Both the position numbers and the translations under genes were made by a program. The notes beneath the pieces were generated by a model that worked only from the letters and a program-made list of their open reading frames with translations, was not told the origin of the DNA and ran no database searches. A stretch of 64,000 bases of DNA from positions 1 through 64,000 of the IMG/VR virus record IMGVR_UViG_3300045974_000429; one strand, 5' to 3'. Origin of the DNA: a virus. Shown here in pieces: positions 5,202-36,113 of this stretch (positions are counted from its first letter, which is position 1; the number at the start of each line of letters is the position of its first letter).

Positions 5202-5521
5202 CTCACCCTCCTGAACCTGTAGACGACGTCTCGGAGCCCGCGGTGGGAGATGCCGGCGTTCCTGAACAGCCCACTGCGGACTCCCTGCGCGGCGACGGAG
5301 CGCAAAAACATGGGGCCGAGCCTGCAGCTTATCTCCCCAGGAAGGCGCCTGACCGAAACGAGCCTGCGCCCCTCCACCTTCACGAGCCCGGAGACGACCA
5401 GGGCGGTGAATACCGCATCCACGTCCCGGCGGAGAGAGGGCCTATCGCTTTTGATTGCAGAAACCTGATGCCGCTCGGGATTTTCTGGAGGCGCCCCTGT
5501 CGGTTTTGATTTCCGGCTCAC
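5198..5521 (-). CDS. small basic paralogue, array member 2, carrying two iterons
   Basis: 107 aa. The family part begins at about residue 28 (SLRRDVDAVFTALVV), has GPMFLRSVAA and ends VVYRFRRVR. Unlike its neighbours it has about 27 extra N-terminal residues, and that extension is where two copies of the 19-bp origin-type repeat lie (5439-5456, 5494-5511). The extension may therefore exist only because the DNA sites are there. GTG start overlaps the previous stop. Confidence 0.75.
   Translation of the reverse strand: MSRKSKPTGAPPENPERHQVSAIKSDRPSLRRDVDAVFTALVVSGLVKVEGRRLVSVRRLPGEISCRLGPMFLRSVAAQGVRSGLFRNAGISHRGLRDVVYRFRRVR
5439..5511 (-). repeat. pair of iteron-like repeats, 55 bp apart
   Basis: Minus-strand copies AATCAAAAGCGATAGGCCC (ends at 5456) and AATCAAAACCGACAGGGGC (ends at 5511) match the four repeats inside the initiator gene at 25971-26189. 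The first is read here in a different frame (AIKSDRP) from those in the initiator (SKAIGP), so the DNA rather than the protein is conserved. Confidence 0.72.
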
Positions 5522-18701: not shown

Positions 18702-18726
18702 ATCCTTGCGCGGTCCGCGCGAAATC
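18702..18726 (-). promoter_or_regulatory. bipartite element, copy D
   Basis: GATTTCG, 7 nt, CGCGCAAGGAT. Its first bases are the TGA stop of the DNA polymerase gene; its end is 6 nt from the next ATG. Confidence 0.62.
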
Positions 18727-21409
18727 ACTGCGTCGCTCGCTTGTGCGCCGACGCCGCGAGCCACTTGTCCAGAGGAATCATGCTCGCCCAGGTGAGCCCG
18801 GCCTTCACGTCCGCGTCGAGCGGCACCTCACCGGAGTCCCAGGAGAGCATCACCGCCTTCACCGTAGCAGCCACCTCCGACACGTCCGCGATCTTGCACT
18901 CCAAGAGCAGCGAGTCGTGGACCGGAAGGATGAGCTTCGCCGGCAGGCCCTCCTCCTCGATCAACCGAACGACCTCGCCGAGCGAGCGCAGGAGGAAGTC
19001 CGACCCGGTGCCCTGGATCGGCGTGTTGTAGCTGCTCCGCTCCGGCGTGCCGCGGCGCGCCTCGTCGGGGCTCCCGATGTCCCAGAGCGGGCGGCGGCGG
19101 CCGGGCCGCCCCTCCCACCACGTCTCGGCGTAGCCGTGCGTGCGCGCAAAGGCGAGCCGCTGCTTGATCCAGGCCCCGAGCACCCGGTAGCGCCCGAGGA
19201 TGGCGTCGAGCGCCGCCTGGGCCACCTGGACGCTCGTGCCGAGCGTGACGGCCATCGCCTTCGCCCCCTTGCCGTAGAGGGCGGCGAGGCCGACCGGCTT
19301 CGCCTCGTCGCGCTGGGCCTTCGTGATCTCGGCCTTCCCGTCGGGGCGGATTGGCGCCTTCGGCCACAGGTAGGGCTGGACGATCTGCGCCGTCTCACCG
19401 TGGAAATCGCGGCCCTCCACGAACACCTGTGTCAGCGCCGGATCGCCGGAGAGCAGCGCCGCGATGCAGGGCTCCAGGCGGGAATAGTCCAGCTCCAGGA
19501 GCGCGCATCCCGCCGGGGCCGCGATGCAGCGCCGGATCATCTCGCCGTCCTCCGACTTGGCGCCGGGCACGTTCTGGAGGTTCGGAGAAGCCATCGAGGT
19601 TCGGCCGGATCCGGCGCCGTCCAACAGGATGTAGCCGTGGGCGCGCCCGTCGATCCCGATGGCGCGCTCCAAGCCCTCGACGTAGGTGCCGAGCATCTTC
19701 TCGATGCGCCTGCGCTCCAGGAGGTCTTTGATCGCCGGGTGCCTGTCGCTGATCCGCGCCAGCGTCTCCTCGTCGGTCGCCGGCCGCCCGGAGTCCGTGA
19801 GCTGCGGGCAGGGGATCTTGAGCTTCTCGTAGAAGAGGGCGGCGACCTGGATCGTGGAAGACCAGTTGAAGCCGGGCTCGACGTAGGCCGCGAGCCGCGC
19901 GTCCACCTCCGCCAGCTTGCCGGTCAGGTGCGCGCGCACGAGATCCACGGCCGAGCGGTCGATGGGGACGCCCCACGCCTCCACGCGCTGCACCGCCGGG
20001 AGCGCGTGCCGCACGACCCTGTCCCAGATGCGCGCCGGGCCGGCGTTCTCCTCTCGGGCGAGCCGCTCCGAGCACCAACAGTAGAGCCGCGCCGTGGCGA
20101 GGGCGTCGCGAGCGTTGTACCGGGCGCCAAGCTCCCGCGGGAGGAGCCCGAGGGCGTAGGCGCGGACCTCCGTGCCGGACTGTGCCGCGAGCGTGAAGGC
20201 CAAGACCTCGACCCGCTCCGGGACGTGCGGGAACAGCCTGGGCAGGCAATAGTCCGAGATGTGTTGGTTGAGGAGCGTGCCCACGGCGTACATCTTGGCG
20301 CGAGCGCGGAGTTCCTTCTTGACCGCCTTCCCGATCCGCTCGACCTCCGCGTCGGCCTCCTCCTTGTGGCCCCCCATCCCGACGAGTTCGGCCATCGTGG
20401 CGATGTCGCCGTCCGCGTCGGCCTCCAAGAGCTTGCGCTGGAGGCGGACGTCCGCGTGCTGGCCGCGAACCGGGACGCCCAGGCCGCGCTCCACGGCGTG
20501 AACGTCCACAGGCAGGTTCGCGCCGACCTTGAGCACCCGACCGGATCGCATCAGGCGCTTGAGCGGCTCCGCTCTGCCATCTTGGAGGGACTCCAAAGGC
20601 CAGACCCAGACGTGCTCCGGCCCGTCGCGGTCGCAGGGGGCGCAGGCAATGTTCGTGAGGTGGAACCCCTCGCGGCCGTAGGGGCGCCCGATCCACTCGC
20701 AGTCGTAGGCGAAAATGCTCGCGTCTGCGAGGTCGAGGGCGGCCTCCTGCGCGTCGGCCTCCGTCTCCACGAGAGAGAAGGTCGCGGCCTCCGGCCCGGC
20801 AGGCACCTTGACGGAGAGCGCCCAGGCCAAGTCCTCCTGGAGCGCGAGCTGGAGGTGGCGGTTGCCGGCCGCTTGTGCCGGCGAGAGCACAACGAATACT
20901 GGGATGCCCTTCGCGGTACGCGCGAAGCTCTTGCGCGCCGAGAGCGGGGAAACCCTGCGCCCGAGAACCGCCTCCGCTGCCGCGGCACCCAGGCAGACGA
21001 TCCTGTCCGGCAGCTCGTCGTCCACGACCCAGGCGAGGTAGCCGCGGCAGGCGTCCAGGTGCTTCTCGGACACCTCCGCGGAGCCCGGAGCGCAGCGCAC
21101 GGCGGAGGTGATCACCGAGCGCCCGGCGCCAAGCGGCAGCACCCGCTTGAGCAGGTCGAACGCGGCGCCGTGCCCGAGTGCCCCGACGCGATCCTCCTCC
21201 CGACTCGGGCGCTCTGCGACGAACAGCGCGCCGCCGGTTCCGGGAGCCGTCTCGATGGGCGGCAGGCAGCAGCTCCTCGCGCCCTCCCGCAGCGAGCACC
21301 GGAAACACCCCTCGTCTCGCGGGAGGCGCGGCGCAACGTCGATGGCGGCGGCCGAGCCCCCTTCCGCGAGGGGCTTTCCGGCGAGGTAGAGCGGGAGGCG
21401 CGAGGTCAT
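18725..21409 (-). CDS. fusion of uracil-DNA-glycosylase-like domain and family A DNA polymerase
   Basis: 894 aa. Residues about 35-205 resemble family 4 uracil-DNA glycosylases: Cys pair CFRCSLREGARSCC, FVAERPSREEDRVG (cf. GExPGxxED) and CLGAAAAEAVLG. The late His-Pro catalytic motif is not evident (LSPAQ), so activity is doubtful. A 3'-5' exonuclease domain starts about 230 (FAYDCEW; D, E). Polymerase motifs: A DYSRLEP (D641), B KPVGLAALYGK (about 703), C PVHDSLLLE (about 830) with Ser in place of the usual Glu after HD. Replicates the phage genome. The preceding gene ends just upstream. Confidence 0.9.
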   Translation of the reverse strand: MTSRLPLYLAGKPLAEGGSAAAIDVAPRLPRDEGCFRCSLREGARSCCLPPIETAPGTGGALFVAERPSREEDRVGALGHGAAFDLLKRVLPLGAGRSVITSAVRCAPGSAEVSEKHLDACRGYLAWVVDDELPDRIVCLGAAAAEAVLGRRVSPLSARKSFARTAKGIPVFVVLSPAQAAGNRHLQLALQEDLAWALSVKVPAGPEAATFSLVETEADAQEAALDLADASIFAYDCEWIGRPYGREGFHLTNIACAPCDRDGPEHVWVWPLESLQDGRAEPLKRLMRSGRVLKVGANLPVDVHAVERGLGVPVRGQHADVRLQRKLLEADADGDIATMAELVGMGGHKEEADAEVERIGKAVKKELRARAKMYAVGTLLNQHISDYCLPRLFPHVPERVEVLAFTLAAQSGTEVRAYALGLLPRELGARYNARDALATARLYCWCSERLAREENAGPARIWDRVVRHALPAVQRVEAWGVPIDRSAVDLVRAHLTGKLAEVDARLAAYVEPGFNWSSTIQVAALFYEKLKIPCPQLTDSGRPATDEETLARISDRHPAIKDLLERRRIEKMLGTYVEGLERAIGIDGRAHGYILLDGAGSGRTSMASPNLQNVPGAKSEDGEMIRRCIAAPAGCALLELDYSRLEPCIAALLSGDPALTQVFVEGRDFHGETAQIVQPYLWPKAPIRPDGKAEITKAQRDEAKPVGLAALYGKGAKAMAVTLGTSVQVAQAALDAILGRYRVLGAWIKQRLAFARTHGYAETWWEGRPGRRRPLWDIGSPDEARRGTPERSSYNTPIQGTGSDFLLRSLGEVVRLIEEEGLPAKLILPVHDSLLLECKIADVSEVAATVKAVMLSWDSGEVPLDADVKAGLTWASMIPLDKWLAASAHKRATQ

Positions 21410-23084: not shown

Positions 23085-23671
23085 CGATGCAGCTCCGGCC
23101 AGAGCTGCGCGAACGCTCGCGCGAACTCCGCCCGAGCCTGCTTCCAGGGTAGCGGCCGCACGTCGAACCGCACCGGGTCCAAGACCGCACCGAGCACGTG
23201 CCACGGCGCCGGCCGAGTCACCTCCGGGAAAAATTGCGCCGCCTCGGAGACGAGCAGGTCCAGGTCGGCCTGCTTCACGTCCGGCGGCTCCTCGCCGACG
23301 AGTCCGAACCTCTCCGCCACGGCCCGCATGATTTTTTCCTCGCAGCGCCGGAACTCGACCATCTCGGGCTGGCTCTTGAGCGGCTTCGGCATGTCGCCGA
23401 TGTACGCCTCCGCCGCATCGTGGAGCAGGCCCCAGCGGGCGACGTTGATCCGCTCCGCTTCGAGCATCCCGGCGGAGAGGCTATACGCCCGTCTGGAGAC
23501 GAGCACGCTGTGCTGTGCGACCGAGTAGGGCTCGGGGGCGTGGCCGTTGTAGCGGTTCACGCAGGCGAGCGCGTGGGCGATGTCGGGGAGCTTGATGTCT
23601 TCCGGCCGCGGGTCGAGCGGCCAGAACATGAAGCCGCGGTAGGTCTGGGTCCAGCTTCCTTTTCGCGTCAC
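23081..23671 (-). CDS. HD-domain phosphohydrolase
   Basis: 196 aa. His/Asp metal ligands: YSVAQHSVLV (about 52), LLHDAAEAYIGDMPKPL (HD pair, about 84, and the later Asp) and a Glu/Asp-rich helix after. Resembles YfbR-type 5'-nucleotidases or dNTPases; substrate not determined. Sits between helicase and primase, coupled to both, so nucleotide-pool control is likely. Confidence 0.83.
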   Translation of the reverse strand: MTRKGSWTQTYRGFMFWPLDPRPEDIKLPDIAHALACVNRYNGHAPEPYSVAQHSVLVSRRAYSLSAGMLEAERINVARWGLLHDAAEAYIGDMPKPLKSQPEMVEFRRCEEKIMRAVAERFGLVGEEPPDVKQADLDLLVSEAAQFFPEVTRPAPWHVLGAVLDPVRFDVRPLPWKQARAEFARAFAQLWPELHR

Positions 23672-25047
23672 GTCGTTCCTCCCGAGGCCGCCGGAGCGGC
23701 GGGTCCGAACCTCACGATGGGGCCGATGGCGGCGCAGGCGAGATCGAGCGGGATCGGCCCGCTCGATCCGCACGCCTTGCCGGTGCGATTCTTCGGCAGA
23801 AAAAACTCGATGCTCATCTGGTCCTCGGCGATCTCCGCCACGAGGAGCTTGTCACAGACGCGCGCCTTGCCCATTCCGTCCGCGAGATCATCCGTCCCGA
23901 TCCGCTTGCGCTTCGCGCCTGTGCTGGACACGCCCTTGGGCTGGCTCACCGTCCAGCCCCAGCACTGCAGCTCGTCGTGGACGAGCCGGCGCAGCTCCGT
24001 GAACACCCGCTTCACCCGCTCGTGGCCGGGCACCTCCTGGCGCGTCTGCGGAATGGTCAAGTCGTCGGCCGAGTCCACGACGAGCAGGTCCACGTCCCGC
24101 CCCTGATCGCGGGAGAGGTCGCGACACCAGCGCCCGATCTCGCCGACGGTCGTCGCACCAGGCGTGAAGTAACGCACCGCCACGCCGCCCCCCGTCGCCG
24201 CCTGCCGCGCCTTCAGCAGCTTCGCGGCCCGGTCCCGCCCGTCGCCGGGCTTCAGCAGCGCGTCGATGGGGATGCCCGTCATGTTCGCGACGACCCGCGC
24301 GTGCCAGATCGCCACGCTGACCTCCGTCGTCGCCACGGCCACGAACCGCCCGTCGTAGGCCGCCTGCCCCGCGAAGTGCGCCAGGGTCATGCTCTTGCCT
24401 CTCCCGGTCGCGAGGGAGACGAGTCCCAGCTCGCGCTTCGGGAGGCCGCCGCCGAGCAGGTCGTCCAACTCCATCACGCCCGTGAAGAGCAGCGCCTGAT
24501 GCGCCTCCTCGTCGGCCTCCGCCCAGGCTGCCGCGTCGCCCAGGAGCACACCCGATGACTCCTCCGCGCTGCCCAAGCGCTCCGCCTTCTCCAGCAGCTC
24601 CGCGACGACCGCGAGCGGCTTCCTGTTCGCGTAGGCGTCCATCCCGGCCTTCAGGGCCGCCGACTCCTGGCGGCGCCGCAGCTCCTTCGCGAGCTGCGCC
24701 ACGACGGACTCCACGTCCGGGGGCGGGAACATCTCGTCGAAGGCGTCGAAGTAGGCGCCGGCCGCGGCGAGCTGCTCGTGCGTCGCCTTGCCCTCGTTCA
24801 TCCTCCGGCGGAGATGCTGAAGAACGTAGGTCGGCGAGCCGGGAACGCCGCGCTCCGCGGCGACCTCGTGCGCCGCCTGCGCGACGGTCTTCGCATCCGC
24901 GGAACCGAGGCAGGCCGGGTCGATGGCGTGGCCGACTCGGCGATAGAAGCCCGCATCCGAGCAGGCGAGCCCGACCGCCTCGCGCTCGAACTTCGGGTCC
25001 AGGTTGTAGGGGTCAGCTTTCGGGGCCTTCACGAGCGCGAGCGCCAT
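23668..25047 (-). CDS. DnaB-like replicative helicase
   Basis: 459 aa. N-terminal helical domain to about 150. RecA-fold core with LGGGLPKRELGLVSLATGRG then KSMTLA (Walker A GRGKSM, about 213), ATTEVS (H1a-like, Glu), and LLVVDSADDL (Walker B, about 299). A sensor/DNA loop segment WGWTVSQPKG follows. Unwinds DNA at the fork; encoded right after the initiator gene, the usual order for initiator and helicase pairs. Confidence 0.88.
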   Translation of the reverse strand: MALALVKAPKADPYNLDPKFEREAVGLACSDAGFYRRVGHAIDPACLGSADAKTVAQAAHEVAAERGVPGSPTYVLQHLRRRMNEGKATHEQLAAAGAYFDAFDEMFPPPDVESVVAQLAKELRRRQESAALKAGMDAYANRKPLAVVAELLEKAERLGSAEESSGVLLGDAAAWAEADEEAHQALLFTGVMELDDLLGGGLPKRELGLVSLATGRGKSMTLAHFAGQAAYDGRFVAVATTEVSVAIWHARVVANMTGIPIDALLKPGDGRDRAAKLLKARQAATGGGVAVRYFTPGATTVGEIGRWCRDLSRDQGRDVDLLVVDSADDLTIPQTRQEVPGHERVKRVFTELRRLVHDELQCWGWTVSQPKGVSSTGAKRKRIGTDDLADGMGKARVCDKLLVAEIAEDQMSIEFFLPKNRTGKACGSSGPIPLDLACAAIGPIVRFGPAAPAASGGTT

Positions 25048-25053
25048 ACCTCA

Positions 25054-26697
25054 TCACCTCCCAGCGGCACGATGTGCCGAGTCCCAGACGAATACGCCCT
25101 CTTCGACCTGCCGGCGAAGGGCCTGCTCGGATCCTTGCGCGGCCGCACCGATTTTCTTTCGCGCCGCCTCCAGGCTCGCGCACCCGTTGCGGAACTCCGC
25201 CGCGACCGCGGCGCGCTGCGCATCCAGGTCGCCCTCGGCGCAGGCGGACACCCCGGACGCCATCCGCCGCCAGCGGGCGTAGAGGGCCTTCGCCTCCTCC
25301 GTGCTCGGCAGCGGGGTGCCCCCCTCGCAGCGGTCGCGGTGCTCCAGCATCTCGTCGAGCCCGCGGCCCTCCATCCAGCGAACCATGAAAACGTTCTCCA
25401 GGCGCGGCGCGGTATTCGGGCCATTCTTTTCGCGGTGCTCGTTGAACCGCCAGTTGACCCAGGAAATTGGAGCCACCTCGCGATCTCGCAGGAGCTTGCC
25501 AGCCTGGAGCAGGACTGTCCTGGAGCTGGGGCGGAGCTTCAACCAGCATTTCCCGAGCCGATGCTGGTGGACGCACTGGTAGGCGGCGAAGAGTTTTTTG
25601 ACGACCTGCTCGTCGGAATCCGTCGCCAGGAGCCTCGGAGCCGGCGGGAGTTTGGCTCGCGCCGGGAATGGAAACTCCGGCGGCATGCTGAGACGAGCCA
25701 GCCGGGTGGGCAGCGGGGTGACGGGAATAACTGGCCGGGTGGGGGTCGGGCCGGAGATGCTCGGCGTGCTTTTAGCCCTAGCGACGGGCGCCGGATTTTT
25801 CGGCGCCTGGGATCTGAGCGTAGCGAAGATCTCTAGCTTCTTTTCTTTACTCGGGTCGCGGTTTTGATTCTCGATCAAGCTGGGCGCGGGTTTGCGCGCC
25901 CCCCCTTCCGGCGCGGATTCGGGGGGGATCGCCGGCACCGGAGCTTCCGGCCTTGTCGTCTTTGATTCCGGCCCTATCGCTTTTGATTGCAGATCCTCGG
26001 AAGCACGCAGCTTCCCGGGAAATGCCCCTATCGCTTTTGATTCTCGCGGGGGCGGCGCGGCCGAGCCGCGAGAAATATTCCAAGAATTGTTTTCCGCCTC
26101 TCGAACCTTTGATTCAGGCCCTATCGCTTTTGATTGCACCTCGCTGGAAGCAGGCGCTTTTTCTGAGTCGGGGCCTGTCGCTTTTGATTTCCTGCCAGCA
26201 CCCTTCCTGGCGCCGCCGGAGAAGCCGACCCCGGCGAGCAGCGCGGCTTGAGCTTTCGGGGGGAGGCGGACCCGGTCGTAGGGGAGCCGCTCGCCCATGG
26301 CCTCGACGCGGCGAACCCACATCATGCGGTGGCCGTCCGGGTGGTTCCGATCTGGCATGTCGAGGTAGGCGAGCCCGCGACCGGACGGCGCGTCGAGGTC
26401 CTGCGGCAGCTTGAAGTCCTTCGGGGGCGGCCAGAGATCCTTGTCCTTTGGAAGCTGTGGGCGGTACTCCAGCCAGCCGAGGCGGTAGAGCCGGGCATAG
26501 GCGCGGTGGACGGACGTCACGCTCATCCCGAGGATGCGCGCCACGGCCTCGTGGGTCTGCGTGCTGTAGGGCATGGAGAAGGTCTTGCGCCGCTGGAGGT
26601 GATCCCACACCCTCCAGGCCATCCTCTGCCACTTCTTGACGCCTGCTTCGGACAACTCCGAGCCGGCTTCCACTAGATACGGTGCTGGTGCGCCCAC
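25054..26697 (-). CDS. replication initiator with winged-helix domain and embedded iterons
   Basis: 547 aa. Residues about 15-85 form a winged-helix DNA-binding domain: KKWQRMAWRVWDHLQ, HEAVARILGMSVTSVHRAYA and RLGWLEYRPQL. Residues about 165-245 are a low-complexity Pro/Ser/Lys linker containing SKAIGPESK-type repeats, which are the translation of DNA repeats at 25971-26189. The C-terminal 220 residues (LFAAYQCVHQHRLG onwards) look folded and may recruit the helicase encoded next. The layout matches lambda O, with origin repeats inside the initiator gene. GTG at 26697 was chosen since AAGGAGG stands 6 nt upstream, in the arm of a stem. Confidence 0.75.
   Translation of the reverse strand: MGAPAPYLVEAGSELSEAGVKKWQRMAWRVWDHLQRRKTFSMPYSTQTHEAVARILGMSVTSVHRAYARLYRLGWLEYRPQLPKDKDLWPPPKDFKLPQDLDAPSGRGLAYLDMPDRNHPDGHRMMWVRRVEAMGERLPYDRVRLPPKAQAALLAGVGFSGGARKGAGRKSKATGPDSEKAPASSEVQSKAIGPESKVREAENNSWNISRGSAAPPPRESKAIGAFPGKLRASEDLQSKAIGPESKTTRPEAPVPAIPPESAPEGGARKPAPSLIENQNRDPSKEKKLEIFATLRSQAPKNPAPVARAKSTPSISGPTPTRPVIPVTPLPTRLARLSMPPEFPFPARAKLPPAPRLLATDSDEQVVKKLFAAYQCVHQHRLGKCWLKLRPSSRTVLLQAGKLLRDREVAPISWVNWRFNEHREKNGPNTAPRLENVFMVRWMEGRGLDEMLEHRDRCEGGTPLPSTEEAKALYARWRRMASGVSACAEGDLDAQRAAVAAEFRNGCASLEAARKKIGAAAQGSEQALRRQVEEGVFVWDSAHRAAGR
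25131..25155 (-). promoter_or_regulatory. bipartite element, copy F (inside the initiator gene)
   Basis: AAAATCG, 7 nt, CGCGCAAGGAT: both halves identical to copy A though fully inside coding DNA, 84 nt ahead of the dnaB-like start. It fits an element that acts on dnaB transcription or on an RNA-level event. Confidence 0.55.
25860..26189 (-). repeat. iterons: probable replication origin
   Basis: Four 19-bp copies on the minus strand, consensus AATCAAAAGCGATAGGGCC, with cores at 25971-25988, 26025-26042, 26118-26135 and 26172-26189. Starts are 54, 93 and 54 bp apart. Copies 1 and 3 carry an extra half-site GAATCAAAG exactly 11 bp away (25960, 26107). A partial copy (AATCAAAAC) lies at 25860-25868. 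The longer gap includes an AT-rich stretch (AAATATTCC, AATTGTTTTC), a possible unwinding site. All lie within the initiator gene. Confidence 0.72.
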
Positions 26698-26702
26698 ACG
26701 GC

Positions 26703-26838
26703 CCCTCCTTGAATGAGGACCGGACCGGATGGAACCCTTTGGGGCGGCAGGGCGGGCTAGAGTGGGTGTCGGCTGGCACCCTCTGGACCCTGACGCCTTG
26801 TGGACGATGGGTCCGACCCGGCCCTCATTCAAGGAGGG
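26703..26838 (-). promoter_or_regulatory. 16-bp stem sequestering the initiator ribosome-binding site
   Basis: In the transcript, CCCTCCTTGAATGAGG (26838-26823) is the exact complement of CCTCATTCAAGGAGGG (26718-26703), 104 nt downstream. The second arm contains AAGGAGG, the ribosome-binding site of the initiator GTG at 26697. Folding would block initiation. The 104-nt loop could bind a ligand, protein or antisense partner, or could re-pair. Confidence 0.68.
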
Positions 26839-26847
26839 ACGGAAGCT

Positions 26848-26876
26848 ACTCTAGTCCACCTCGACTCGCCGCGCAA
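26848..26876 (-). promoter_or_regulatory. candidate promoter for the initiator gene
   Basis: TTGCGC (26876-26871), 17-bp spacer, TAGAGT (26853-26848). Matches to sigma70 consensus are weak, but transcription would begin near 26841, just before the first arm of the stem at 26838. It lies in the largest non-coding gap of the window (26698-26946). Confidence 0.35.
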
Positions 26877-26946
26877 GGGTTCCAATCCTGCGCCCGATCC
26901 GAAGATGTCTTTCGACCCTATAGCACCTCGCCAGAAAGATCTACCC

Positions 26947-28395
26947 CTACGCCGCCCCCTCCTCCGCCCGGAGGCGCGCAGCCTCGTCGGCCTTCGCGCG
27001 CGCCATCAGGGAGAGCTGCTCGGCGGGGAGCACGACGACCTCGTGTTTCTCGCGCCCGTAGGCCGCGAACCGCGCGAGGGCGTGCCGGTCGAGCCAGCGG
27101 TGCGTTTTGCGGTCGAGGACGTCCCAGACCTCGAAGGTGGTCTTGCCGGCGGCGACGCGCATCCCGCGCCCGATGCGCTGGAGGGCGGCGATGACGCTCT
27201 TCCCGGCCGTCCCGATGACGACCGAGGCTAGGGTGGGGATGTCGATGCCCTCTTGGAAAACACCCGAGCAGACGAGCACGTCCAGATCGCCGCGGACGAG
27301 GGCGCTGATCTTGTCCTGGCGTCGCCGCACGCTGTCGGTCCCGTGCGTGAAGCCTGTGCGGAGCCCGGTCCGCCCGACGAGCCTCTCCAGCTCCCGCCCG
27401 TGGGCGACGTGCTGCACGAAGAGGAGCGCAGGCTTCTCGGCCGCCTGGGCCATCTCGACCAGGAGGGCGTTGCGCTTGCCGGACTCGGCGACCAGCTCCC
27501 GGTACATTTCCTGATGCGTGGCGAGCTTGCGCCCGGCGACGGAGGGCTGTTCGCAGGGGATCATGCGGATCGTGGGCTTGGAGAGCACGCCAGCAGCGAT
27601 CAGCTCCGCGGCCCGCACGCGCGCCACGACCTTGCCCGTCGCAGCCGTCACGAGGAGGCTGCGCTTGTCCGTGCGGTCGAGCGGGGTTCCCGACATCGCG
27701 ATGCGGTAGTAGGCGCCGGTGAGCGCCATCACGGTTGCCCAGTACGTCTGGCTCGCGACGACGTGGCCCTCGTCGGCGATGAACCCGCCCACCGAGGCGG
27801 CGAGCGCTTTCGCTCGCGCGTGGTGGGGGTGGGAGTCGTTCACGAGCGCGTCTCGGAAACTTTGGAACGTGGTGCAGGTCAGCACGGCGCCCTCCGACCA
27901 CGTTCCGCCGCCGATGCGCCCGGCGATGCCGCTCGTGCGCTTCTCGTAGCGGTCCGCGACGTCGAGCACGAGCTGCTCCCGATGGACGAGGAAAAGCCAC
28001 TTGCAGTAAGGCGCGCGGCGCACGAGACCGACCGCGACTTCCCCTTTACCTCCTCCTGTGGAAATCCATATAATTCCCTGGCCTTCGGTGAGGGCGGAGT
28101 CCACGGCTCCGCGCTGGTAGTCGCGGAGCCATGCGAGGTCCGCGTTGATGTCGAGCGGCGGCCGCTTGCGGCGGTCGATGACCTCGACCTTCATCCGCTC
28201 GTCGACCGCTCCGCGCTCCACGAGGTGGAGGAACCCGCGCGGGAACGTCCCGCGCCACTTCTGGAACATGCGGATCTTGCGCCCGCCCCCCATGTAACTC
28301 CGGTCCTCGAACGCGAGGAACTCGGACAGCCATGCCGTCTCCGCCTCGCTGGCGGCGGCCACTCGGCAGCGCGCGTTCTCGACCTCGATCAGCAC
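26947..28395 (-). CDS. UvsW-type superfamily 2 helicase
   Basis: 482 aa. Motif I IISTGGGKG-like segment IIWISTGGGKGEV (about 109-121), motif Ia LVHREQL, motif II ADEGH (DEGH box, about 183), motif III AMSGTP, motif V FQEGIDIPTL and motif VI QRIGRGMR (about 433). An N-terminal domain of about 90 residues precedes. UvsW-like enzymes remodel recombination intermediates and R-loops. GTG start right after the upstream stop. Confidence 0.9.
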   Translation of the reverse strand: MLIEVENARCRVAAASEAETAWLSEFLAFEDRSYMGGGRKIRMFQKWRGTFPRGFLHLVERGAVDERMKVEVIDRRKRPPLDINADLAWLRDYQRGAVDSALTEGQGIIWISTGGGKGEVAVGLVRRAPYCKWLFLVHREQLVLDVADRYEKRTSGIAGRIGGGTWSEGAVLTCTTFQSFRDALVNDSHPHHARAKALAASVGGFIADEGHVVASQTYWATVMALTGAYYRIAMSGTPLDRTDKRSLLVTAATGKVVARVRAAELIAAGVLSKPTIRMIPCEQPSVAGRKLATHQEMYRELVAESGKRNALLVEMAQAAEKPALLFVQHVAHGRELERLVGRTGLRTGFTHGTDSVRRRQDKISALVRGDLDVLVCSGVFQEGIDIPTLASVVIGTAGKSVIAALQRIGRGMRVAAGKTTFEVWDVLDRKTHRWLDRHALARFAAYGREKHEVVVLPAEQLSLMARAKADEAARLRAEEGAA

Positions 28396-30082: not shown

Positions 30083-31333
30083 CTACTTCTTGGCGGCCTC
30101 GGCGGCGTCCTTCTCGGCCTGGGCGACGAGCGCCGCCGCCGCGATGGTCGCCTTGAGCTGCTCCAGGCGCGCGACGAGAGCAGGCATCGCCGCCCCGAGC
30201 GTCCTCCCGTACCGCTCGACCTTGGCGAGCATCGCCTCCGCCTTCTCGGCGCGGCCGGAGAGTTTGCGGGGCGACATCCCGCCGGCCATCACCTCGGCCT
30301 CCAGCTCCGCCGCCTCGCCGCCGGCCTCCTGCTCCAGCGCGTCGAGCACCGCGGAGACGGCGTCCTCGGTCCGCATCGCGGGAACCGTGGCGAAAACGTG
30401 CGAGGAGATGCCCTTGAGGACCGCCGTCCGCTGCGCCCAAGCGGCCGTGACGTCGCGCGGGAGGAAGTAGACGCCGCCGGACTCCCGGAGGCCGACCGCG
30501 CCCAAGCGCCGCGCCTGAACCGCGAGCCACGCCCCGAACGTCCCGGAGGCGTGCGCCTGGAGGGCGGCGGCGTAGTCTGTCGCGATCTGCTCGGCGGCCG
30601 GGTGGTCGGCCGGCTCGAACCGGAGCGCGTCCGCCTCGTCGCGGAGCACCTTCAGGCCGGTCGCCCAGGCGAGGTCGTTGGCGGCGGCGTCCGCGCTCTC
30701 CCGGACGATGGCCCAGCCGTCGCCGGTCGGGAGCGGGCGCGCCAGGACGTGCCGGGCGCGCTGGCCGTTCACCGCGGCCCGGAGCGCGTCCGCGCCCGAG
30801 GGCGGGGAGAGCAGCTCGTCCTCGTCGAGCCCGGCGGCCACCCAGGCCGCCTTCAGGATCTCGTGGTTGACCGTGCCCGAGAGGCGCCACCAGACGATGG
30901 CGCCCGCGGCGTCGCCCGCATCGGGGACGACCACCAACCCGCCCGAGCCCGCGACCGGGGACGGGGACGGCTTGGCCGGGGACGCGTTCGGGACCATCGG
31001 GGCCTCCGCGGCCTGGAGGACGGCCTCGTGCTCCTGCGCGCGCTCGACTTCGGCCTGGAGCGCGATGGCGGCGGCCTCCTCCGGCGACTCCGGGATCTGG
31101 ACGACCGGGTTCGGATCCTGCGGCCCGAAGAACTCGGCCGGCGGCTCGCCGTCCGGCTCCAGCTCGTCCTGGAGGGCCTTGCGGGCCTCCGCCTCGGAGT
31201 AGCAGGGGCGCTCGCGGGCGCCATCGATGGCGAACACGAACCCCTCGGGCGCGAGCACGAGGTGGGTGAGGCCGAGGGAGCGGAGGGAGGCGTCTTCGAT
31301 CTTCGTGAGGGAGGGGGCGGGGGTCGGGTTCAT
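30083..31333 (-). CDS. DUF6744-like phage protein
   Basis: 416 aa. The C-terminal two thirds carry features of a family common in large phages: AIVWWRLSGTVNHEILKAAW, GGVYFLPRDVTAAW and SSHVFATVPAMRTEDAVSAV, ending in a long helix (about 350-416) rich in Ala, Glu and Lys. Residues 85-150 are a Pro/Glu/Ala-rich linker. Function not known. Own promoter at 31381-31409 and terminator-like hairpin behind it, so a single-gene unit. Confidence 0.7.
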   Translation of the reverse strand: MNPTPAPSLTKIEDASLRSLGLTHLVLAPEGFVFAIDGARERPCYSEAEARKALQDELEPDGEPPAEFFGPQDPNPVVQIPESPEEAAAIALQAEVERAQEHEAVLQAAEAPMVPNASPAKPSPSPVAGSGGLVVVPDAGDAAGAIVWWRLSGTVNHEILKAAWVAAGLDEDELLSPPSGADALRAAVNGQRARHVLARPLPTGDGWAIVRESADAAANDLAWATGLKVLRDEADALRFEPADHPAAEQIATDYAAALQAHASGTFGAWLAVQARRLGAVGLRESGGVYFLPRDVTAAWAQRTAVLKGISSHVFATVPAMRTEDAVSAVLDALEQEAGGEAAELEAEVMAGGMSPRKLSGRAEKAEAMLAKVERYGRTLGAAMPALVARLEQLKATIAAAALVAQAEKDAAEAAKK

Positions 31334-31380: not shown

Positions 31381-31409
31381 AAGATAGGCTTTCTTCTCTT
31401 TTGCGTCAA
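31381..31409 (-). promoter_or_regulatory. sigma70-type promoter P1 of the conserved set
   Basis: TTGACG (31409-31404), 17-bp purine-rich spacer, TATCTT (31386-31381). The TGA inside TTGACG is the stop codon of the upstream gene, the same arrangement as P3. Confidence 0.75.
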
Positions 31410-33675: not shown

Positions 33676-36051
33676 TTATTTCACGGCGACCAGGATCGGG
33701 TTGAGTTTGGCCAGTGTCTTCATCGACGCGGCGCCGAGCAGCCGGGCGCCGGCGAGCGCCCTGGCGGGCGCCTCGACCAGATCCGCGGCGTCATCCATCA
33801 GCGTCTCCAGGAGCGCCCACATCTTCGCGGCGCGCACCTTCTGGGAGGCGCCGGCGTCGCCGGTCACGAGCGCGGTGCAGGAGGAGAGGACCGCGTCCGA
33901 GATATCGAGGCGGTGAGGGTTGTGCTTCCACTTCGCCTTCCCGTCCAGGATCTCCGCCGGGTCCGGCAGGTCCATGTTCGTGGCGTAGGTCAGGAACTCG
34001 CCGGCGGGGCCGTCGCCGACGAAGGCTGCGACGAGCGTGTCCCGGTCGCCGGCCGAGAGGCCGTGGATCTTGGAGGCGGCGAAGGCCCGCGTGGCAGCCT
34101 CCCAGCTCCGGGGGGAGGGCCACGCCTGGGAGGCGGCCGGGCTGTTCGCCTCGGGCACCTTGAGGAGCAGGTCCGACTTGCGCTTGACGAACCCGGCGAC
34201 GAGGCCCCGAGCGGTCGCCCACGGCGTGCCCCAGGCGGCGAGCACCCGCGCCTCCTCGGCCGCCGGGTCGATGGGCGCGGCGGCGGCGCTCTCGCCACCG
34301 CCCAGGAGCCAGTTCGTCCACTCCTCGGCGGTCGGGGCCTCCCAGTTGATGTGGCCGAGTCGGTTGGCGACCGGCATCGCGAGGTCCCACCCGCCGGCCG
34401 CTTGGTCGGTCGGGTTCGCCGTGGCGAGCACCCGGACGCCCGAGGCGAGCGGCTGTCCGCCGATCATGCGCTCCTGGATGAGCCCGAGGAGCGGCGGCTG
34501 GAGCGCGGGCGGGGCGCAGTTGTGCACCAAGGTGCCGCCTGCCCCTGCGAAGAAATTGTGGTCGCGTTCGACGGTCAGGTCGTAGACGATGCAGGAAACG
34601 GCGTTGCGCTGGATTCGGTGCACGCGCACGAACGCAGGAAGTTGCGGATCAGCGCCTCCAGTGCGTCCGGAGTCCGGAGAAGCTGCGCACGAACCCGCAA
34701 GGTCCGCCAGCCCGCCGCGCGATAGTCTTGTGCTTCCAGCAGAGGCTCCGAGGGCGTTAAGCGGTCTAGCAGAATCGCCGCGCGCAGCGGCAGATCCGCA
34801 AAGTCCGGCACCCGCCAGTTTCTGCGCCCCCCCGGCGGGATCGGTACCCGCAAGCTTCCATCCCCCGTGTACGGCAGCGCGATCTTGCGCGCAGTGAGAA
34901 ACGTGATCATCTCCCGTTCTGTTGGCGTCGGTTTCGCCATGCGGAACACGCACGGGATCCGCCCGGAGATCGTGTGCGCGCGGTTCTTCGCTGCTATCGA
35001 GTCCATCTGCCCGTGCTTCCAGGCCGCCAGGAACTTGGTTGACGCCATCTCGCGCCCCGCAGCACTGCGCCAGAACGCTCCCGCAGCCCGCCCGCCCATC
35101 TGCGATAGATTTGGATGGATCTTCCGAGCCGCTGCAGCTGCACGCGATGCCGCTGCGGCCCGCTCCGCCGCGGTCGTCCTCGCGAGGAACGTTGCCGTGC
35201 TCTTGCGCTGAATTATTGCATTCACTTCGAGCGAAAGCGTTGCACGCATCTCGGCCAGCCTCGTTCCGTGCGCACGCTTCTCCGCAGCAAACGCTGGATC
35301 CGCCATCCGTGCGCGCTGCGTTACCGCCGCAGCCGCCCCGCGCCTTGCTGACATCTGCGGGTCCGCCAGCAGTGCTGCAGGGAACCGCGTGCGAAACTCC
35401 GCTACCGTCATCCCATGCCGCTTCTGAAGATGCGTCGCTGTGAGGACCCACATCGGCAGCAAGCAGATCGCGCAGCGCAACGAGGGTGCTTCCAGCGCGG
35501 AGCTGCTCTGCTGGGATCCAGCGTCCTTCGCTGTAGATGGGGTGGTCAGGGGTGCAGCGGATCGTCGTGCCATCGGTCAGCTCCAGGGTGAGCAGCGCCG
35601 TGACGCGGCGCTGCATGACTCCAGAAACCAGATTAGCGCGGCGCATCCCACGTTGCAAGGCGCAGGACCAGACGGCGTCACCGACCCGCAGCTGCTCGAT
35701 TGGCCGCTGGCCTTGTGGCGTGTGGACCGGCGTGCCTGCGGGGAAACAGGAAATCTCGTCGATGATGACCAGCCCCCTCTCCGCCATCCCGAGCGTCCAC
35801 TCGGGCGCGGGGTAGGAGAGGAGGGTGCGCCCGTTGATCGTGGTCGGGACCGGGACGACGCCGAAGGCGCCCTCGCCGCGCTCGCCGGGGGAGAGGATCT
35901 CGACCTTGAGGCCGCCAGCCTTTCCGGCCGCCTCGCAGCTCTGTGTTTTGGCGACACCCGGAGGGCCGCGGAACAGGAGGGGCAGGCCCCAGCGGTTCCG
36001 GCTGATGGGGGTGAAGAGGGCTGCGTGGAGGATCTTGGCCTTGTTCGTCAT
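33676..36051 (-). CDS. MoxR-type AAA+ ATPase interrupted by an intein
   Basis: 791 aa before splicing, 381 aa after. N-extein: Walker A RGPPGVAKT (28-36) and Walker B RGLVIIDEIS (92-101). The intein (residues 102-511) sits directly after DEIS; the C-extein resumes CAPPALQPPLLG, then LATANPTD (sensor 1) and RLGHINWEAP (Arg finger region). The insertion point in Walker B is a conserved site, as inteins prefer. MoxR proteins remodel partner complexes with VWA proteins; the partner is at 31855-33273. Driven by promoter P3. Confidence 0.9.
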   Translation of the reverse strand: MTNKAKILHAALFTPISRNRWGLPLLFRGPPGVAKTQSCEAAGKAGGLKVEILSPGERGEGAFGVVPVPTTINGRTLLSYPAPEWTLGMAERGLVIIDEISCFPAGTPVHTPQGQRPIEQLRVGDAVWSCALQRGMRRANLVSGVMQRRVTALLTLELTDGTTIRCTPDHPIYSEGRWIPAEQLRAGSTLVALRDLLAADVGPHSDASSEAAWDDGSGVSHAVPCSTAGGPADVSKARGGCGGNAARTDGGSSVCCGEACARNEAGRDACNAFARSECNNSAQEHGNVPREDDRGGAGRSGIACSCSGSEDPSKSIADGRAGCGSVLAQCCGARDGVNQVPGGLEARADGLDSSEEPRAHDLRADPVRVPHGETDANRTGDDHVSHCAQDRAAVHGGWKLAGTDPAGGAQKLAGAGLCGSAAARGDSARPLNALGASAGSTRLSRGGLADLAGSCAASPDSGRTGGADPQLPAFVRVHRIQRNAVSCIVYDLTVERDHNFFAGAGGTLVHNCAPPALQPPLLGLIQERMIGGQPLASGVRVLATANPTDQAAGGWDLAMPVANRLGHINWEAPTAEEWTNWLLGGGESAAAAPIDPAAEEARVLAAWGTPWATARGLVAGFVKRKSDLLLKVPEANSPAASQAWPSPRSWEAATRAFAASKIHGLSAGDRDTLVAAFVGDGPAGEFLTYATNMDLPDPAEILDGKAKWKHNPHRLDISDAVLSSCTALVTGDAGASQKVRAAKMWALLETLMDDAADLVEAPARALAGARLLGAASMKTLAKLNPILVAVK
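34519..35748 (-). mobile_element. intein in the MoxR ATPase, with HEN gene in another frame
   Basis: 410 codons. N-terminal splicing block A CFPAGTPVHTPQG, then block B GTTIRCTPDHPIYS (TxxH-type), then C-terminal blocks F/G VYDLTVERDHNFFAGAGGTL and the end VHN followed by Cys of the C-extein. Class 1 layout: Cys1, penultimate His, terminal Asn, Cys+1. About 300 codons in between read as Ala/Gly/Ser/Asp-rich low-complexity sequence in the splicing frame; the same DNA codes for a plausible homing endonuclease one frame away. Confidence 0.88.
34575..35573 (-). CDS. homing endonuclease, out of frame within the intein
   Basis: 332 aa in the +1 frame relative to the MoxR-intein frame. N-terminal MucR/ROS-like zinc finger with CAICLLPMWVLTATHLQKRH and GMTVAEFRTRFP (about 33-64). 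Helical Ala-rich middle. C-terminal Vsr/EDxHD-like nuclease region: PTPTEREMITFL, WRVPDFADLPLRAAILLDRL (acidic positions) and AAGWRTLRVRAQLL. Vsr-like endonucleases are known with split or interrupted inteins. It overlaps intein blocks at both ends, so the whole gene is dual-coded. No clear ribosome-binding site found. Confidence 0.7.
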   Translation of the reverse strand: MARRSAAPLTTPSTAKDAGSQQSSSALEAPSLRCAICLLPMWVLTATHLQKRHGMTVAEFRTRFPAALLADPQMSARRGAAAAVTQRARMADPAFAAEKRAHGTRLAEMRATLSLEVNAIIQRKSTATFLARTTAAERAAAASRAAAAARKIHPNLSQMGGRAAGAFWRSAAGREMASTKFLAAWKHGQMDSIAAKNRAHTISGRIPCVFRMAKPTPTEREMITFLTARKIALPYTGDGSLRVPIPPGGRRNWRVPDFADLPLRAAILLDRLTPSEPLLEAQDYRAAGWRTLRVRAQLLRTPDALEALIRNFLRSCACTESSATPFPASSTT

Positions 36052-36084: not shown

Positions 36085-36113
36085 AAAGTAAGCTTTCTTC
36101 TCTTTCTTGTCAA
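36085..36113 (-). promoter_or_regulatory. sigma70-type promoter P3 (MoxR gene)
   Basis: Consensus TTGACA (36113-36108), 17-bp spacer AGAAAGAGAAGAAAGCT, TACTTT (36090-36085). The TGA in TTGACA is the stop codon of the small gene at 36110-36283. Confidence 0.85.

Follow-up and report, generated by a model that had tools for sequence, protein, structure and literature searches.

Upstream of a replication-initiator-like gene in the genome of an uncultured phage, we found a hairpin that looks like a real control switch, because a hairpin of this kind, differing in sequence, recurs in about one third of the comparable regions found in distantly related phages. We consider it about evenly balanced whether the full reading holds, namely that this hairpin sits at the 5' end of the transcript, locks the ribosome-binding site (RBS) of the initiator and is most likely opened by RNase III. 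The stretch analysed, called the window here, is 64,000 nt long (positions 1 to 64,000 of IMG/VR record IMGVR_UViG_3300045974_000429); the parent record has 83,744 bases and a GC content of ~0.69. On its minus strand lie, in this order, a helicase gene, the initiator-like gene, a DnaB-like helicase gene, a primase gene and a family A DNA polymerase gene.

A predicted 29-bp stem over the ribosome-binding site

A sequence-only reading of this DNA had proposed a perfect 16-bp stem that encloses a 104-nt loop and hides the RBS of the initiator. The exact 16-bp inverted repeat is present (26703-26718 with 26823-26838). Among perfect inverted repeats with arms no more than 400 nt apart it is the longest of the 83.7-kb record, although a length of 16, reached by 1 block shuffle in 40, is by itself only modestly unusual. 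The repeat can be followed over 27 nt with 89% complementarity, and in minus-strand RNA with G-U allowed it grows into a stem, P1, of 29 contiguous pairs (26840-26812 with 26729-26701). These comprise 25 Watson-Crick and 4 G-U pairs with no A-C, so that every non-Watson-Crick pair is G-U on the mRNA strand and therefore A-C on the other strand. The 104-nt loop is right for the 16-bp core, whereas the full P1 encloses 82 nt; the Shine-Dalgarno (SD) sequence does fall inside the 3' arm in the predicted fold, as the earlier reading had it. The features of the leader are as follows.

26812..26840, minus strand: P1 5' arm, pairing with 26701-26729; predicted first bases of the mRNA
26730..26811, minus strand: loop of 82 nt with a predicted inner hairpin, P2 (folding predictions)
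26701..26729, minus strand: P1 3' arm, 29 contiguous pairs, holding the SD
26704..26710, minus strand: SD AAGGAGG, buried in P1 (anti-SD duplex -11.7 kcal/mol)
25054..26697, minus strand: initiator-like gene, 547 codons, GTG start at 26697-26695

The GTG start at 26697 thus comes 3 nt after the end of P1. P1 has a stem score of 71, whereas shuffling the 331-nt region 30 times gave at most 36, and it is the top-scoring stem in the 83.7-kb record, where the runner-up reaches 56 (spans up to 260 nt). The leader as a whole (26845-26690) has a folding energy of -84.5 kcal/mol (z = -5.85), and none of 200 shuffles was as stable. The RBS is buried in this predicted structure, and closure of P1 should, on these folding models, block translation of the initiator. 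A mobile-element scar with a short target duplication was looked for by eye and was unconvincing.

Distribution among distant phages

Two flanking genes served to place the element in other genomes.

26947..28395, minus strand: helicase gene upstream, the synteny anchor (Pfam ResIII/Helicase_C, phrog_16)
23668..25047, minus strand: DnaB-like helicase gene downstream (phrog_19, E 5.8e-36)

Neither the viral contigs nor the deposited phages searched contained a close relative of the initiator protein or of DnaB (near-identical records were possibly omitted), and distant kin were reached via helicase and polymerase searches, two of which supplied the best 80 of 222 and the best 80 of 122 matches. 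One scan of genome contigs added a single contig, from an archaeal MAG, which lacked any stem scoring 44. The matches listed gave 130 loci including the window, or 120 after removal of duplicates (e.g., L009/L042, L021/L081 and L027/L086). Helicase and DnaB genes lay on the same strand and 300-4500 nt apart in 68 regions, of which 64 were distinct. With a long stem defined by a score ≥44, a loop of 30-95 nt and at least 20 bp, 24 regions among the matches listed had one between helicase and DnaB; the stems of L060 and L142 pass this threshold and were set aside as elements. Accepted elements were thus found in 22 of the 64 distinct regions, window included, or about a third of those among the matches listed. 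Three loci in which DnaB was undetected (L039, L146 and L186) were added, for a total of 25 elements including the window, all distinct and 24 of them on distant phage contigs, again among the matches listed; 21 of these 24 lie between helicase and DnaB.

The hairpin sequences of the 24 other contigs are unrelated to that of the window, and no sequence alignment of the 25 elements is possible. Their stems span 23-40 positions, mismatches included (the lower limit of ~23 bp is partly a product of the chosen threshold), and their arms are 42-91 nt apart. Such stems are concentrated between helicase and DnaB, with 25 in 118 kb there versus 24 in 1097 kb elsewhere after deduplication (25 in 124 kb versus 24 in 1205 kb before), while one shuffle of the undeduplicated loci gave 2 and 11, respectively. 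Best-stem scores of 44-78 occurred in 25 of the 68 regions (four duplicates included), and none of the 68 shuffled regions reached 44. No accepted element was present in 42 of the 64 distinct regions, among them L005, the nearest relative. The element tracks the initiator's end of the region, since in L038, L052, L061 and L064 the stem begins 0.8-1.9 kb past the helicase match and 1.5-2.0 kb before DnaB. No initiator was identified after the stem in L039, and two equally strong long stems at other places in related phages (L015:15365-15462 and L011:1032-1177, scores 77 and 68) were excluded because no initiator start was seen after them.

In 15 of the 25 elements, a frame of 150 codons or more that is preceded by an SD opens between -4 and +15 nt relative to where the 3' arm ends; random positions drawn from these loci show this in 110 of 1500 cases. 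In 10 elements no long frame starts near the stem. Read by eye, the SD falls within the arm in 11 of the 25 (the window, L022, L030, L034, L038, L043, L046, L055, L059, L062 and L071) and immediately beyond it in L010 and L112. The in-stem SD of L030 serves a 17-codon frame (L030:1579-1632) that overlaps the initiator start as ATGA, possibly a leader peptide with translational coupling, and that of L022 serves a 163-codon gene preceding the initiator.

Signs of selection on pairing in the RNA

Mismatches within P1 point to selection acting on the sense RNA, because G-U pairs outnumber A-C there, unlike in control stems. Under strand-symmetric scoring, P1 held 73 G-U (G-T) versus 19 A-C over the 25 elements, with G-T exceeding A-C in 21 of 22 informative elements, whereas control stems elsewhere in the loci held 146 G-T and 140 A-C (Fisher p 1.6e-6 versus P1). 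Arm composition alone predicts a G-T:A-C ratio of 3.39:2.18, which the observed 73:19 exceeds (p 1.2e-4). As the elements had first been chosen with a scoring that favours G-U, the excess is best read together with that in all stems of a symmetric scan between helicase and DnaB, where it is smaller (70:31, p 0.0016 versus controls).

Covariation of the arms in relatives, which the sequence-only reading had named as a check, is also seen. Among the related trio L061, L112 and L064, 28 P1 pairs are 97.6% paired, and 7 of the 28 carry changes in both partners (mean of 2.6 in shuffles, none of 500 reaching 7), while slid versions of the arms pair only 33-39%; the count covers the outer 28 pairs of P1 because P2 was out of register in the trio alignment. 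The 24 distant contigs that carry a stem of unrelated sequence fit the same picture. From these comparisons of sequence and predicted folding, we regard the P1 structure, the placement of the SD and start, and the conservation of the structure in other phages as well supported.

The initiator-like gene

We infer the label "initiator" from the gene's architecture, its iterons and the adjacent DnaB-like gene. Its 547-aa product matched no Pfam family above cut-off and no PHROG, and its structure model (mean pLDDT 65.7, pTM 0.36) matched no PDB fold at E ≤ 0.001, so that searches of Pfam, PHROG and PDB gave none of the sequence or fold matches to a named initiator that a lambda O-like protein would be expected to show. 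In the model, the N-terminus can be interpreted as a winged helix, residues ~167-321 as a disordered linker and the C-terminus as helical; among nine proteins tested, L046 and L061 gave weak, below-cut-off matches to HTH_36. By tblastn (E ≤ 0.01) the product matches six loci of the set then compared, best L005 (29% over 552 columns). Aligned with the same-position products of nine other phages, it shows 17-29% identity; conserved blocks lie towards the two termini and the middle varies, and the kinship of these products is therefore partly positional.

25972..26189, minus strand: four iterons AATCAAAAGCGAYAGGS inside the initiator-like gene (25972, 26026, 26119 and 26173; repeat search)

These four close copies fall in the linker-coding part of the gene, and its total of 5 copies compares with 2-3 in six codon shuffles. 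Internal iterons exceeded all six codon shuffles in 12 of the 25 elements (the window, L010, L038, L046, L047, L048, L052, L062, L112, L146, L165 and L186), and 13 showed no excess. Elsewhere in the window, two further AATCAAAAGCGAYAGGS copies (0 and 1 mismatch; 5440-5456 and 5495-5511, minus strand) lie 55 bp apart inside the first part of a small ORF on the minus strand (5521-5198), possibly a second initiator binding site or a regulated gene.

The gene at 33676-36051 (minus strand), with a Walker-A-like start recognized by eye, is interrupted by an intein (Pfam Intein_splicing, 1.5e-11), and a DUF2201 metallopeptidase/VWA-like gene (33534-31855) comes next; in L005, the helicase gene likewise bears an intein, with a weak HNH match. 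The DNA polymerase A gene (18725-21409, minus strand) encodes an N-terminal uracil-DNA-glycosylase-superfamily domain (8.7e-10) ahead of its exonuclease and polymerase domains.

Promoters and the transcription start

26848..26876, minus strand: promoter-like TTGCGC-17-TAGAGT (score 8.1-8.5; p 0.15 alone)

The predicted transcription start of this site is 26841, at the start of the stem. Promoters were scored with a sigma-70-like model. The mean promoter score over the elements is highest where the predicted start falls at -2 to +1 of P1 (z 4.1); the best sigma-70-like upstream promoter starts within -8 to +3 (+1 being the first P1 base) in 10 of the 25 elements and is spread over -35 to -122 in the remaining 15. 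The sequence-only reading had held that transcription starting between the two arms would speak against the hairpin. At group level the starts peak instead at the first base of P1, but in the window itself a rival promoter-like site with a start between the arms (26797) scores higher, 9.5 versus 8.5 at the stem start. That reading had also suggested an antisense target in the loop, a suggestion that found no support, as sigma-70-type antisense promoters gave no signal across the leader (combined p 0.82 over the 25 elements); plasmid-type antisense copy control found no support on the same result. A sensor domain in the loop and a coupling of replication start to a signal, which that reading also put forward, are speculative.

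Away from the leader, two near-alike promoter-like sites (TTGAC...AAGAGAAGAAAGC...) at 31381-31409 and 36085-36113 (minus strand) precede ORFs beginning at 31333 and 36051, and this pattern has 4 matches in the window versus 0.26 expected.

The loop and its match to the promoter

Inner hairpins were predicted in most of 27 stems folded. Compared with shuffled versions, the loops form on average 4.4 fewer pairs with the 5' arm (fewer in 21 of 25 elements), and arm and loop together reach a more stable fold (mean z -1.57). Reduced pairing between loop and 5' arm is as expected if fast closing matters, and self-folding loops would show the same. The loop also matches sequence upstream of the stem.

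26848..26860, minus strand: segment A, GGTGGACTAGAGT, complementary to loop segment A' (p 0.025, strand-symmetric scoring)
26751..26763, minus strand: loop segment A', ACTCTAGCCCGCC, complementary to A
26875..26884, minus strand: TGGAACCCTT, overlapping the predicted -35, with an inverted copy in the loop at 26730-26739

In the window, another test of A:A' over 60 nt gave p 0.21. Across the elements, own A:A' pairs score 20.8 versus 15.8 for swapped pairs (-25 to +3; 0 of 20000 permutations as high), and the own-pair score is above the 95% level in 9 of 25. Loop complementarity extends to -50 to -22 (p 0.0014), with p at least 0.07 further out and downstream, and a direct-repeat signal between loop and upstream sequence was absent (p 0.62). 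The clearest examples are L062 (14 of 14), L146 and L186 (11 of 11) and L030 (14 with one G-T), the window being less clean; read by eye, L061, L112 and L064 have differing A and A' that nonetheless match within each. Segment A overlaps the predicted promoter. Mismatches in A:A' number 7 G-T and 14 A-C, which differs from P1 (Fisher p 8e-5) and is weak evidence against RNA pairing, because composition alone predicts 2.91:3.31. As a cis RNA pseudoknot alongside a fully closed P1, A:A' would by our estimate be sterically hard.

A:A' may be a DNA feature, may act as RNA in read-through transcripts or may be something new, and a fast co-evolving promoter and loop pair is accounted for by none of the models that we considered. 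It is a long shot that the element serves as a phage-specific, incompatibility-like feedback device matched to the promoter, with part of each phage's own promoter (-50 to +3) repeated in inverted, rapidly co-evolving form in the loop. If such a device were real, the loop could pair with the non-template strand of the promoter or with read-through mRNA, and initiator translation, promoter firing and possibly R-loop formation at the origin would be tied together.

How the hairpin might work

Under the RNase III reading, the initiator transcript would start at, or within one base of, the start of P1, and its leader would fold into a 5'-terminal 29-bp hairpin that buries the SD, such that the intact leader would probably go untranslated. 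P2 would fold independently and leave the 5' arm available for closing P1. Opening would then follow post-transcriptionally, most likely through host RNase III cutting the P1 duplex, to judge by analogy with known leaders, and the cut would free the RBS for a limited, timed supply of initiator. The elements maintain stem length but not sequence, a pattern that an enzyme specific for double strands would tolerate. RNase III is described as needing a target of at least 22 nt (PMC5371410), and P1 in the window has 29 uninterrupted pairs.

Other readings share parts of this evidence. Loops that avoid the 5' arm, an arm plus loop more stable than with shuffled loops and inner hairpins in most of the 27 folded stems would all suit a ligand or protein switch, in which P2 and the loop bind a small molecule or a protein, perhaps the initiator itself, that opens or holds P1 in a replication feedback. 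We nevertheless think this rather unlikely, for no conserved loop sequence or shape has been demonstrated, Rfam returned no match (none at the gathering threshold in the window and none at E ≤ 1 in L001, L010, L022 and L030) and a ligand would have to open a very stable stem of 29 bp. The avoidance of the 5' arm (21 of 25 elements below shuffled) favours fast closure and so counts against a kinetic window like that of MS2, in which ribosomes load on the nascent RNA before it pairs and P1 then shuts the gene permanently. The SD also sits in the closing arm itself, and this reading appears improbable despite arms 42-91 nt apart in the 25 elements and the precedent described for MS2 (PMC6071253, PMC6733600). 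An MS2-type transient structure that delays closure found no support either, again from the 21 of 25, a result of thermodynamic folding only.

Pairing reminiscent of copy control, with segment A from a read-through mRNA or the 3' end of the helicase mRNA kissing loop segment A' in trans or cis and altering the lock, would explain why own A:A' pairs beat swapped ones (20.8 versus 15.8, confined to -50 to +3) and why A and A' change together in L061, L112 and L064. It too is doubtful at best: A lies within the predicted promoter and would be missing from a short transcript, the A:A' mismatches (7 G-T, 14 A-C) are unlike those of P1, a weak point given composition, and no antisense promoter was detected (combined p 0.82). 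A feature of the DNA, with the arms as an operator pair or as a cruciform or origin element, draws on the window, whose arms are near-palindromes CCTCNTTNAANGAGG (7 of 8 palindromic, p 0.025) and the only exact matches there to the arm dyad CCTCNTTNAANGAGG, which with up to 2 mismatches has 4 matches versus 1.71 expected. Arms are not palindromic as a group, though (combined p 0.69 with the window, 0.87 without it), and the excess of G-U over A-C points to RNA, which makes a DNA-level role very improbable; a repressor-operator pair in particular is disfavoured at group level by the non-palindromic arms of the other 24 elements. Equally hard to credit is a 5'-terminal stem acting as a stabiliser: the stem would occupy the extreme 5' end, as that requires, but a stabiliser needs no stem reaching the SD, which lies in the stem in 11 of 25 elements.

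Comparison with known systems

Returning to a lock opened by RNase III, the closest likeness by description is the Staphylococcus aureus cspA mRNA, which is described as having a few unpaired bases followed by an almost perfect 32-bp 5' helix, whose cutting by RNase III undoes the structure at the RBS and increases translation (PMC3386247). Both leaders would have a long 5'-terminal helix over the ribosome-binding region; cspA, however, is a host cold-shock gene, whereas the phage leader belongs to an initiator gene and has its SD inside the 3' arm. Phage lambda cIII and Escherichia coli adhE are also described as having an RBS that is shut off by RNA structure and made accessible by RNase III (PMC5371410), as would be the case here if we infer the opener correctly, but these are other genes. 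The MS2 maturation-gene leader likewise hides its SD by 5'-leader pairing, according to its descriptions (PMC6071253, PMC6733600), but in an RNA phage and with a transient hairpin that delays closure, whereas the loop of the phage P1 stem leaves the 5' arm free. We would place the window leader with SD-sequestering leaders and, if the opener is right, with those opened by RNase III; nothing found here marks it as a riboswitch, an antisense-controlled leader or an MS2-like leader.

The plasmid initiator genes ColIb-P9 repZ and R1 repA have leaders with an antisense RNA and a pseudoknot. They resemble the phage leader in placing a replication initiator under translational control by leader RNA, with the 17-codon overlapping frame of L030 as a further likeness, and differ in that the phage elements give no antisense promoter signal and their lock is one long stem. 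Initiators of the lambda O type combine an N-terminal DNA-binding domain, iterons within the gene and a DnaB-related gene downstream. The window has a DNA-binding-like N-terminal domain, internal iterons and a downstream DnaB-related gene as well, but its protein lacks a sequence or fold match to a named initiator, and we know of no such leader for lambda O. The lock itself is familiar, while conservation as structure only on replication initiators and a promoter-matching loop were not found described in the titles and abstract openings searched, among which no title concerned such a phage initiator leader.

Implications for phage replication

Because the element is conserved as structure and not as sequence, it is easily missed by sequence and Rfam searches. 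If the RNase III reading is true, a leader-RNA lock on replication initiation would be common to diverse uncultured DNA phages, and a host nuclease or RNA-binding factor would license phage replication.
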